From Enterovibrio sp. JCM 19048 (GTDB taxonomy: Bacteria > Pseudomonadota > Gammaproteobacteria > Enterobacterales > Vibrionaceae), in contig BAXE01000002.1 in NCBI GenBank assembly GCA_001310415.1, positions 62,001 through 126,000 of the forward strand: 64,000 nt of DNA, given 5' to 3'. Within the stretch, counting starts at the first letter, position 1; every line of letters begins with the position of its first letter. Below the pieces are notes generated by a model. The model searched no databases. It had not been told where the DNA came from and was given only the letters and a program-made list of their open reading frames with translations. Below are positions 28,559-32,143 of this stretch, in pieces. The position numbers were made by a program, and so were the translations under genes.

Positions 28559-29619
28559 ATGAGAAAGATAATCCACGTAGACATGGACTGTTTTTATGCA
28601 GCGGTAGAAATGCGGGATAACCCGGCGCTGCGTGATATTCCTTTGGCTATCGGCGGTTCAGAAAAACGCGTGGGGTGATTTCTACCTGCAATTATCTGGC
28701 GCGTAAATTTGGCGTGCGCTCTGCGATGGCGACGGCTCATGCCCTGAAATTATGTCCCAACCTTACCGTTATCCGTGGTGATATGGCGAAATACAAAGCT
28801 GTGTCGTCACAGATCCGCGCGATCTTTTCCCGCTATACCGACAAAATCGAACCCCTTTCCCTTGATGAAGCGTACCTGGATGTAAGTGACTGCTTACTTT
28901 TTCGTGGCTCTGCTACCCTTATCGCCGAAGATATCCGACGCGCTATCCGTGAAGAGTTGGGTCTGACAGCCTCAGCCGGTGTGGCGCCTGTGAAGTTTAT
29001 CGCCAAAGTTGCTTCGGATATGAACAAACCCGACGGTATGTTCATTATCACTCCGGGCGAAATTGACGGCTTTGTAAAGACCCTGCCATTGGAGAAAATA
29101 CCCGGTGTCGGAAAAGTAACACTCGCCAAACTGCATGAGCTGGGGCTGTTCACCGGTGAAGATGTGCAAGCCTATGACCGCACGGCATTGTTGCAGCGGT
29201 TTGGGAAATTTGGGCAATCACTCTGGAACCGCTGCCACGGTATCGATGACCGCAACGTCGAAACCTCTCGGGTTCGTAAATCTGTCGGGGTGGAGCGCAC
29301 TTTGCCACAAGACATCCAGACTGAAGAAGAGTGTTTGGCGGTGATGGTGTCTTTGTATGAAGAGATGAAAACAAGGCTGGAGCGGGTATGCCCTTCATTT
29401 GAAATTGCCCGTCAGGGGGTGAAACTGAAATTCTCCGATTTTCAGCAAACCACGGTCGAGCACAGACAGTGGATGTATGATGAATCCCAGTTCCCGGCAC
29501 TGTTGCGAGAAGCGTTGGGACGCCAGCAGGGAAGGGGAGTTCGCCTAATCGGACTCAACGTCGGGCTTAAAGCGGAAGACAGCACCCAACCCTCCCAACT
29601 GGCTTTTGACTGGTCATAA
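28559..29619 (+). CDS. dinB: DNA polymerase IV, one frameshift
   Basis: Y-family translesion polymerase, SOS-induced. Start [22 protein letters not shown] (catalytic Asp in VDMDCF). The frame breaks near 28668, where a missing C in an arginine codon turns [19 protein letters not shown] into a stop. Then catalytic [10 protein letters not shown], the helix-hairpin-helix KIPGVGKVT, and a little-finger domain ending in AFDWS. About 353 aa restored, equal to E. coli DinB (351). LexA box upstream, terminator 2 bp downstream. Confidence 0.95.
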
Positions 29620-29661: not shown

Positions 29662-31120
29662 TCAGGCTTTTGCCGGAATGGCTTTCAGAATCGCAATCAT
29701 CTGTTCCCAGAAAAGGCCAACGGTGGCGATATTCACTTTCTCATCCGGTGAGTGCGGGAACTTGATGGTTGGGCCAAAAGAGATCATATCCATGTTTGGA
29801 TACGGTTCTTTAAACAGGCCACATTCCAAGCCGGCGTGGATCACCATGATATTCGGCACGCGGCCATAGATCTCTTCATAGGTCTTTCTGAACACATGCA
29901 TGATCTCTGAGTCCGGATCTGGCTTCCAGCTGGGTATGCGCCGGAAAATGCCACTTTGGCACCTGCCAGCTCACCCATGGATTTCAGCATGCTTTCAACA
30001 TAGCTGCGGCCACTGTCTGCCAGTGAGCGGATCAGACACAGCAGGGTTAATTTGTCACTTTCAGTGGTAATAACACCAAGGTTCAGAGAGGTTTCAACCA
30101 CACCGGCGATGTCATCACTCATGCGCACCACGCCGTTCGGGCAAGCGTTGATGGCGGCAATAATACGGCTTTGTACCGCTGGGGTCAGTGGCTGCTCGCT
30201 GATGTCATGATCCAGTACAGACAGTGCAATTGATGTTTCTACCGCACCCAGCTCTTCGGTCAGCAAGGATTCGAAGTAGTTGAACAGGCTGGTAAGTTTC
30301 TCAACGTTTGAAGCAGGAACCGCAATATCTGCTGCAGCTTCGCGCGGGATGGCATTGCGAAGAGTGCCGCCACGTACAGAAAGAAGGCGCAGTCCAAGTT
30401 CGTTCGCGTGTCCCGCCAGAAAACGGCCCAGCAGTTTGTTGGCATTTGCACGGCCTGTGTGGATGTCACAGCCAGAGTGGCCACCTTTCAGGCCTTTGAT
30501 CTGCAGGGTTTTACCCACATAACCGCCGCCCAGCTCCTGACGATCCAGATTGAACGTCAGCGATGCATCAACACCACCGGCGCAGCCCATGTAAATTTCG
30601 CCTTCCTGCTCGGAATCGGTGTTAAGCAGAATTTCGCCTTCCAGCCAGCCTTCTTTGAGGCCAAATGCGCCAGTCATGCCGGCTTCTTCATCGATGGTCA
30701 GCAGCACTTCCAGAGGGCCATGTTCGATGTCTTTGGAAGCCAGCACTGCAAGACATGCCGCCATGCCCATGCCGTTGTCAGCACCCAGTGTGGTGCCTTC
30801 TGCCGTTACCCATTCACCGTCGATATAAGGACGGATAGGGTCAACCGAAAAATCGTGTCCGGTGTCTTCATTTTTCTGCGGCACCATGTCGATATGCGCC
30901 TGAAGCACCACACCCTTGCGGTTTTCCATGCCTGGAGTGGCTGGTTTTTGATAAAGACGTTTCCTACGTCATCACGACGGACTGACAGACCTTCACTGGT
31001 TGCCCAGTCGACAATGTACTGCGCCAGTTGCTCCTCGTGCTTAGATGGGTGAGGGATAGAACAGATCTTATCGAAAAATTGCCACACAGCTTGTGGTGAC
31101 AGTTGGCTGATTTCTGACAC
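29662..31120 (-). CDS. pepD: Cytosol nonspecific dipeptidase (aminoacyl-histidine dipeptidase), two frameshifts
   Basis: M20-family zinc dipeptidase (carnosinase-type). GTG start at 31120: VSEISQLSPQAVWQFFDKICSIPHPSKHEEQLA. Metal-site motifs LQAHIDMVPQ, TLGADNGMGMAACL and TIDEEAGMTGAFG; then GCAGGVD, KGGHSGCDIHTGRANANKLL, GGTLRNAIPREA and the C-terminal IMVIHAGLECGLFKEPYP. Breaks near 30930 (NQP / MENRKGVVLQAH) and near 29925 (GAYPA / HVFRKTYEEIYG). About 486 aa restored. An upstream hairpin with a T-run lies only 25 bp before the start (see terminator at 31145). Confidence 0.95.
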
Positions 31121-31144
31121 AGGCTTTCTCCAGAAAACTAGAAA

Positions 31145-31170
31145 TAAAAAGGCATGCAATTCTGCATGCC
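31145..31170 (-). terminator. Terminator hairpin just upstream of pepD
   Basis: On the minus strand, GGCATGCA / TGCATGCC (8-bp stem, GAAT loop) followed by TTTTTATTT, ending 25 bp before the pepD GTG. It follows the decayed chemoreceptor tail at 31243-31365 and is probably its original terminator, though it could now act on pepD leader transcripts. A second small hairpin ATGCTTT/AAAGCAT lies at 31202-31219. Confidence 0.7.
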
Positions 31171-31242
31171 GATAACTTATCAGAATTTGTAACGCAAAAG
31201 TATGCTTTGTTAAAAGCATTTATCTGCATCTACGTTGAATGA

Positions 31243-31365: not shown

Positions 31366-31516
31366 TTATGTAAAGGCATTGTGGCGTCCACTTTTCCATC
31401 AACATGGTCAGCGTTCAAGCATCTTTGGTTAACCTGTTGGTATTCATGGGATTTTCATCAATGACCGGATTGTTTGTATGTAATTAAATTACATAAAAGA
31501 GTTTGTAATGATGATA

Positions 31517-31570
31517 TTTGTGATCTAGATCGTCTTTATGCTTGTAATAAAATAACAAAAAGGCTATTAT
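31517..31570 (+). promoter_or_regulatory. CRP-site plus promoter of the small-RNA/small-ORF unit
   Basis: TGTGATCTAGATCGTC (31519-31534) keeps the left CRP half-site TGTGA and the preferred TCTAGA centre; the right half is weaker. Downstream are TTGTAA (31542-31547), a 17-bp spacer and TATTAT (31565-31570), predicting a start near 31577 with the CRP site centred about -50. Upstream, 31366-31516 holds nothing else that I recognise. Confidence 0.7.
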
Positions 31571-31576
31571 CTCACC

Positions 31577-31934
31577 GTCCCAAGGTAAGAGCACTCGGCT
31601 CGGGACAAAGCGTCTCGCTTTCATTTGTTTATGGATAAGCCCGAAATCATTCGTCTCCACGGAACCGAGCTTTTTGTTAAAGCGACTTTCTTTCGAATAT
31701 TTGAGGTGAACTTATGAAAGGTGACTCAGCGTGTAACTATTGGAACCGCGGTTCGATTTACACCACCAATTTCCGTTATCCGAATGCGTTCGGATATCAA
31801 CGCAAGTAAGACAGTTTGTTCCCCTTGGAGGTCAGGCCTCCAAATGTAATACCCCGCTCTAACAGATACTTTGTTTCCGCAGTTTGGAAACGCACTTTAT
31901 ATCTGGCGCCACTATTTGATAGTGGCGTTTTTTT
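31577..31934 (+). ncRNA. vcdR: vcdRP-like dual-function RNA
   Basis: A self-contained unit: CRP-dependent-looking promoter, leader of about 137 nt with small hairpins, a 31-codon ORF, then about 100 nt of 3' region ending in a strong terminator (CGCCACTAT / ATAGTGGCG, T7, 31907-31934). The 3' region has hairpins GGAG/CTCC (31827-31841) and GTTTCC/GGAAAC (31873-31891) and two unpaired-looking runs of four C: TTCCCCTT near 31819 and TACCCCGC near 31851. From memory, VcdRP of Vibrio cholerae is a cAMP-CRP-controlled RNA that encodes a 29-aa protein acting on citrate synthase and uses C-rich stretches to repress PTS sugar-transporter mRNAs; this unit matches that plan. I cannot align it here, so the name is provisional. 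The alternative is an attenuator for the permease, less likely since a full terminator and separate PurR boxes intervene. Confidence 0.7.
31714..31809 (+). CDS. vcdP: 31-aa small protein, VcdP-like
   Basis: Too short for routine calling but well supported: ATG at 31714 preceded by GAGGTG at 6-bp spacing, and a TAA at 31807. The product begins MKGDSACNYWNRG and ends YPNAFGYQRK: basic, rich in aromatic residues, one cysteine, no signal peptide or TM. It is embedded in the CRP-controlled RNA unit. By position and size it is the counterpart of VcdP (29 aa in V. cholerae, reported to act on citrate synthase); identity is not verified by alignment. Confidence 0.7.
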   Translation: MKGDSACNYWNRGSIYTTNFRYPNAFGYQRK

Positions 31935-32143
31935 ATCCAAAAAACCTTTCTCACCACATTGCTCTCATATTTCCAATTTGCTTATTAAATAGTCAGTTAT
32001 TCCTATTACTATTGGACGGTTAACGCGGGATTTTGCGTTAAACCCACTCAGTCGCATAAAACACCAGCAAACAGACAAGAACGTGATGCAATTCACGCTG
32101 GAAATTTAGTGAGTTGGCAGTTAATATTCGCGTCAAATTTTTT

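Follow-up and report, generated by a model that had tools for sequence, protein, structure and literature searches.

A probable vcdRP ortholog in Enterovibrio sp. JCM 19048 with predicted HexR operators on either side of a CRP-like promoter site

We analysed a window of 64,000 nucleotides from Enterovibrio sp. JCM 19048 (the whole stretch whose first lines stand above) and found in it a locus that we regard with good confidence as an ortholog of vcdRP of Vibrio cholerae; this was the best explanation overall, inferred gating by CRP and HexR included. The locus combines a homologous ORF under purifying selection, a conserved place in the genome, a putative C4 seed, a terminator, a CRP-like site and two HexR-type boxes. 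In V. cholerae the VcdRP RNA acts with Hfq through four consecutive cytosines to repress ptsG, nagE, treB and ptsHI, its small protein VcdP binds citrate synthase and makes it more active, perhaps by countering inhibition by NADH, and CRP-cAMP represses vcdRP itself (PMC8672173; this and the other papers marked by such numbers are cited from those portions of their text that were available to us). An earlier note, made from the letters alone, had described the locus as a CRP-controlled, vcdRP-like unit; when the letters were rechecked all of the elements it described were present at their positions, and the vcdRP-like identity was upheld by the agreement of VcdP family match, neighbours, C4 seed, terminator and CRP-like site. 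The known system would thus extend to a genus outside the alignment in the available part of PMC8672173.

The unit should reach upstream to 31479, where a distal HexR-type box, a perfect TGTAATTAAATTACA (31479-31493, no strand assigned), was recognised by motif identity and conservation in relatives. Downstream of it on the + strand are a CRP-like site, TGTGATCTAGATCGTC (31519-31534), which fits the consensus at 7 of 10 positions, and a promoter conserved in the genus alignment, whose -35 element TTGTAA (31542-31547) is separated by 17 bp from a -10 element TATTAT (31565-31570). The -35 element is overlapped by a proximal HexR-type box, TGTAATAAAATAACA (31543-31557, no strand assigned), which has one mismatch and is likewise conserved in relatives. 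A transcript of ~358 nt (31577-31934, +) was predicted from the -10 element and the terminator, its start being inferred, and the leader counted from the predicted start near 31577 is ~137 nt long on the + strand. This leader contains a predicted hairpin with GGA in its loop (31627-31640, +), a CsrA-type candidate on comparative grounds, and a family-wide core recognised in alignments, TCGTCTCCACGGAACCGAG (31651-31669, +), that holds a second GGA. The ribosome site GAGGTGA (31703-31709, +) precedes the 31-aa vcdP ortholog (31714-31809, +), which was assigned by its match to NF053523 and its dN/dS. Both of the C4 stretches reported earlier are present on the + strand, but only the second (31852-31855), within the predicted VcdR seed AATACCCCG (31848-31856), stands at the family-wide seed position and has a complement in ptsH; the first (31821-31824) is off that position and shared with only a few Grimontia relatives. 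The unit closes with a Rho-independent terminator, an 11-pair stem followed by a T run (31905-31934, +), that is conserved in the genus.

The fold of 31577-31937 was more stable than expected (z = -2.53; none of 100 shuffles equally stable) and terminator-like sites numbered 9 against 1.4 in shuffles, while a sigma-70 scan gave one promoter against a shuffle mean of 3.2, which is not significant by itself. Some parts taken alone, the promoter and the CRP-like site with its 7 of 10 positions among them, are not beyond chance, and the unit is lifted beyond chance because it is conserved: promoter, leader core and ORF were kept across 14 aligned loci of the genus, and CCCC was kept in 13 of the 14.

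The 31-codon ORF matched the NCBIfam model VcdP (NF053523) with an E-value of 8.4e-11 and 41.4 bits, below the curated cut-off of 50, a shortfall that counts against the vcdRP assignment. Since all 14 same-genus matches scored under 50 bits, we claim orthology to vcdRP and not passage of the NF053523 threshold. Of 296 genomes sampled from the same family, 238 had a match to the model, in 160 cases above the cut-off, and among 369 genomes sampled from the class it matched only Enterovibrio sp. JCM 19048's own. Six of the 58 family genomes with no VcdP match carry the leader core CTCCANGGAACCGAG; on inspection by eye, five are vcdRP loci that have diverged, and the sixth (L236) is a chance occurrence. 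The vcdRP loci sampled came from the Grimontia/Enterovibrio group, Vibrio, Photobacterium, Aliivibrio and Salinivibrio, and 18 of 119 loci were set aside by hand as lying outside Vibrionaceae. Within searched flanks of 1.5 kb, a permease lay 3' of 58 of 59 loci and pepD lay 5' of 47 of them. The neighbours named in the earlier note, pepD and a purine-type permease, were confirmed by a match to TIGR01893 above cut-off for the pepD piece and to PF00860 for the downstream permease. VC2278 and VC2279, which flank V. cholerae vcdRP, are what we take to be the corresponding permease and pepD. Besides this place between VC2278 and VC2279, the locus shares with V. cholerae VcdRP the order of ORF, C4 seed and terminator, the CRP-like site, and PTS genes and citrate synthase as expected targets; it differs in peptide length (31 versus 29 residues), leader (~137 versus 103 nt) and transcript (~358 versus 306 nt) (PMC8672173). 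The peptide is thus indeed longer than the 29 residues reported, but 31 residues is the norm in Grimontia/Enterovibrio (14 of 14 distinct copies); 28 residues were found in 72 of 80 parsed Vibrio copies, one of the 72 being a misparse. That an unrelated small ORF and terminator merely resemble vcdRP by chance has next to no probability and is in effect refuted by synteny and alignment, given that place, peptide pattern, leader core, seed and terminator are all shared, with intermediates across genera, even when set against the sub-threshold VcdP score, the lack of a Pfam match to the ORF and the lack of an Rfam match at gathering scores anywhere in the window.

Two genes upstream, a dinB-like gene (28559-29619) and pepD (29841-31219), each have a frame broken into two, and hexR and several PTS genes elsewhere in the genome are likewise split; these splits look less like biology than like indel errors of the assembly, which is 87.5% complete. 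In the sample of the same genus, the four smallest genomes (G002, G021, G041 and G067; 2.1-3.7 Mb) had neither a VcdP match nor the leader core, which suggests loss of vcdRP with genome reduction.

The vcdP ORF is under purifying selection. Its reading frame, to which the earlier note had pointed, is conserved across relatives: among 13 distinct ORFs, variable columns fell at codon positions 1, 2 and 3 in 13, 10 and 27 of 31 codons, respectively, and dN/dS had a median of 0.13 and was below 1 in all 58 computable of 78 pairs. In V. cholerae, replacing VcdP residues 15-18 by alanine left citrate synthase without activation (PMC8672173). The 29-residue VcdP of V. mimicus (L166) has AVYT at residues 15-18, and that of Enterovibrio sp. 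JCM 19048 has SIYT at the aligned place; in addition, the genome encodes a type II citrate synthase (TIGR01798, 787 bits versus a cut-off of 485). The idea, formed by eye, that VYT of VcdP mimics the C-terminal LYTG of citrate synthase was set aside because the G is not conserved in VcdP.

Turning to the RNA, CCCC was present in the 3' part of 123 of 131 loci and missing from 8, two of which keep CCC; in this count the misparsed L178 was corrected, L136 was unparsed, and 3 of 134 loci were left out as having too short a 3' part. The ribosome site of ptsH, GUAUCGGGGUAAAAC, holds a 7-nt perfect complement of the seed with a predicted energy of -15.9 kcal/mol, which was equalled by 4 of 56 controls, while a complement of at least 7 nt occurred in 2 of 56. 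As controls we used start regions of window ORFs that span 180 codons or more and follow a purine-rich stretch; some of these ORFs are surely not genes. GGGG stood near the start in 1 of the 56. Among the transporter genes, nagE, ptsG, a sucrose-type transporter and a piece of treB were identified. The ribosome site of nagE contains GGGGG, but its pairing energy is ordinary, being reached by 33 of 56 controls. Another nagE-like gene is complementary to the seed over 8 nt within its opening codons (-18.5, reached by none of the 56). The start regions of ptsG (-13.4, 9 of 56 controls as good) and treB (-12.9, 10 of 56) have no GGGG. The seed thus appears to fit ptsH best and nagE-type genes in part, with ptsG and treB not supported, so that of the pairing partners proposed in the earlier note nagE holds in part and the other two find no support. 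C4-G4 pairing is predicted at ptsH and nagE-type genes and was not found at ptsG and treB, which sets the locus apart from V. cholerae VcdRP (PMC8672173); its absence at the latter two, with the ordinary energy at nagE, weighs against our overall reading. SgrST of enterobacteria is comparable as a dual-function RNA that represses PTS mRNAs and has its ORF upstream of the pairing part; it is unlike in that its peptide inhibits PtsG and SgrR activates it, and the two are not homologous as far as tested (PMC8672173).

Across genomes, GGGG was present at ptsH in 20 of the 21 examined, in a comparison that used the first C4 for Enterovibrio sp. JCM 19048 and several Grimontia (the target energies above used the second). 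The one exception was an Aliivibrio MAG whose vcdRP also has no CCCC; G. hollisae, in turn, retains GGGG at ptsH although its vcdRP is without CCCC. The loci without CCCC included those of G. hollisae and the Aliivibrio MAG, the first tandem copy in Vibrio G169, and Photobacterium copies; the diverged locus L232 has none either. These losses raise the alternative that the locus serves mainly as a vcdP mRNA in this lineage, with base pairing reduced or being lost, a reading to which the 8 of 131 loci, same-group G. hollisae among them, and the unsupported pairing with ptsG and treB lend some weight. We consider it improbable, since Enterovibrio sp. JCM 19048 and 12 others of the 14 group loci keep CCCC and the ptsH ribosome site complements the second C4 by 7 nt, and we retain the reading of a dual-function locus here. 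Three Photobacterium loci (L162, L210 and L038) encode VcdP with no C4 seed. The genomes of P. lipolyticum (L162) and G145 (L038) each contain a further VcdP match besides the copy without CCCC, which points to a possible VcdP-only paralogue. Loci with VcdP and no C4 seed indicate that the two functions are separable in evolution; both were conserved in all species tested in PMC8672173, in its available portion. Vibrio G169 (L036) carries two vcdP copies in tandem (C1:732971 and 733220), 249 bp apart and each with a leader core of its own; CCCC is missing from the first, and no obvious terminator separates it from the second.

As for the promoter, 127 of 135 sequences have an exact TGTGA 20-28 bp upstream of the proximal box and a further 5 have it with one mismatch; 128 of these 132 copies stand at 23-24 bp. 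The promoter set comprised 135 non-identical Vibrionaceae vcdRP promoters after the truncated L113, L166 and L183 had been dropped. Both HexR-type boxes scored at least 12 of 15 in 106 of them, compared with 29 of 4050 mononucleotide shuffles. The 29 promoters below this threshold count against HexR gating, but in 21 of them the boxes lie 74-76 bp apart and score 14-15 (distal) and 11 (proximal). The remaining 8 have at least one poor box, and the Aliivibrio MAG (L042) has neither box. In G. hollisae the CRP-like site is lost and both boxes are kept, as judged by eye. The distal box is the sole perfect TGTAATWWWATTACA in the 5.27-Mb genome (reversed control, 0), and the HexR motif of V. parahaemolyticus is the same string (PMC11906056). 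Within the window, HexR-type matches at up to 2 mismatches numbered 3 versus a shuffle mean of 0.25. Genome-wide there were 26 such sites versus 23 for the reversed control, and loose HexR-type sites thus carry little weight; what lets the looser copies near genes read as gapA, adhE and pflA count as support at all is that glycolytic and fermentation genes are described as being under HexR control. An adhE-type gene elsewhere (L075; G000 C4:119118 and C4:119366) has two HexR-like boxes upstream, with 2 mismatches each and 248 bp apart. A piece of hexR was identified (NF008451, E 7e-63) near a pyruvate kinase piece, a point in favour of the overall reading; its frame is broken in this assembly, which speaks against it.

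That the palindromes are an AT-rich promoter element or the sites of another regulator is unlikely in our judgement: the loose sites, no commoner than the reversed control, favour it, and it has to contend with the perfect two-fold symmetry, the uniqueness of the perfect copy, the identity with the Vibrio HexR motif, the looser copies near gapA, adhE and pflA and the excess of box pairs over shuffles. HexR operators elsewhere have the same palindrome and likewise concern central carbon metabolism (PMC11906056, PMC5343134, PMC5902321); the Pseudomonas protein is a repressor released by KDPG (PMC5902321), and the regulon in Vibrionales is wide (PMC5343134). HexR was not mentioned in the literature found on VcdRP, including the available part of PMC8672173, in a partial search that leaves room for an earlier listing of this promoter, and the HexR papers found had no vcdRP in the title or the start of the abstract. 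The HexR-CRP-HexR layout is conserved and, so far as the literature examined goes, new; HexR control of vcdRP is a prediction.

The spacing between the two boxes was 52-53 bp in Salinivibrio (6), 63-64 bp in Grimontia/Enterovibrio (13) and one Vibrio, 72-76 bp in Vibrio (54), Photobacterium (19), Aliivibrio (9) and two other genera (2), and 84 bp in one genus (1), with a single Vibrio outlier at 33 bp. Accordingly, 105 of 106 pairs fall into four classes of ~5, 6, 7 and 8 turns at 10.5 bp per turn. This helical phasing is only suggestive, because the sequences are related and do not count as independent cases, and because the classes were recognised post hoc. Together with the TGTGA distances, the classes indicate that the distance of CRP to the promoter is fixed and that the distal box shifts by helical turns.

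On the proposed mechanism, the RNA would be cut by RNase E and, assisted by Hfq, block translation of PTS mRNAs through its CCCC, and VcdP would bind citrate synthase and raise its activity, both by analogy with V. cholerae; the likeliest RNA targets here would be ptsHI and nagE-type genes. The earlier description as CRP-controlled is kept for the CRP-like site and refined in direction: because CRP represses vcdRP in V. cholerae (PMC8672173), we read it as repressed. The promoter would be shut by CRP-cAMP and HexR and would open once cAMP drops and HexR is loosened by KDPG. In this way an excess of sugar would turn on the unit; the output would be less sugar uptake, with acetyl-CoA pulled into the citric acid cycle. 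VvdRP of Vibrio vulnificus, the named ortholog, fits neither CRP nor HexR repression simply, its own expression rising up to 36-fold in glycerol and staying unchanged in glucose (PMC9737408). Because the boxes are helically phased around a CRP site near -50, a position that rests on the predicted transcription start, two HexR dimers may lie on the same side of the helix and may be bridged, CRP helping by bending the DNA. A simpler arrangement, in which the boxes act independently and with no bridge, the proximal one by occlusion and the distal one as an activator or spare site, has a little under an even chance of being correct; HexR is described as activating from upstream sites and repressing from downstream sites (PMC11906056), and 52-84 bp is short for a bridge, while whole-turn spacing in four classes at a fixed distance of CRP to the proximal box argues the other way. 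We tentatively propose, seeing the balance as tilted against it, a Vibrionaceae-wide HexR-CRP-HexR repression complex in which CRP bends the DNA and HexR dimers meet over the promoter, with cAMP and KDPG as gate and CsrA as a third input. No report of HexR at vcdRP or of a HexR loop was found in the literature examined; the loop in the available part of PMC5902321 is formed by PtxS/PtxR, not HexR, on operators ~50 bp apart. If true, the complex would explain how CRP represses from a site near -50, and with a second sugar-phosphate sensor at the promoter the RNA would be coupled to flux through the Entner-Doudoroff pathway. PMC8672173, as far as available, explains vcdRP control by CRP alone, and the added value here is a concrete hypothesis on what turns vcdRP on.

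In the leader, 133 of 135 loci have a hairpin with GGA in its loop 5' of the family-wide core TCGYCTCCANGGAACCGAG, compared with 297 of 2700 shuffles, and the hairpin stems vary in a compensated way (GCUC/GAG[UC], GUUC/GAAC and GUUU/AAGC). This hairpin is absent from the minimum-energy fold of the whole transcript, so the evidence for it is comparative. The optimum CsrA site is described as GGA in a hairpin loop (PMC6550530), and on that comparative evidence the leader has one; VC2278 and VC2279 do not appear in the main text of a V. cholerae CsrA study (PMC7858070). CsrA control of the leader is accordingly offered as a prediction, and the conserved hairpin is new so far as the literature examined goes. 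Two loci (L039 and L045) have a second copy of the leader motif CTCCANGGAA between the first copy and the vcdP start.
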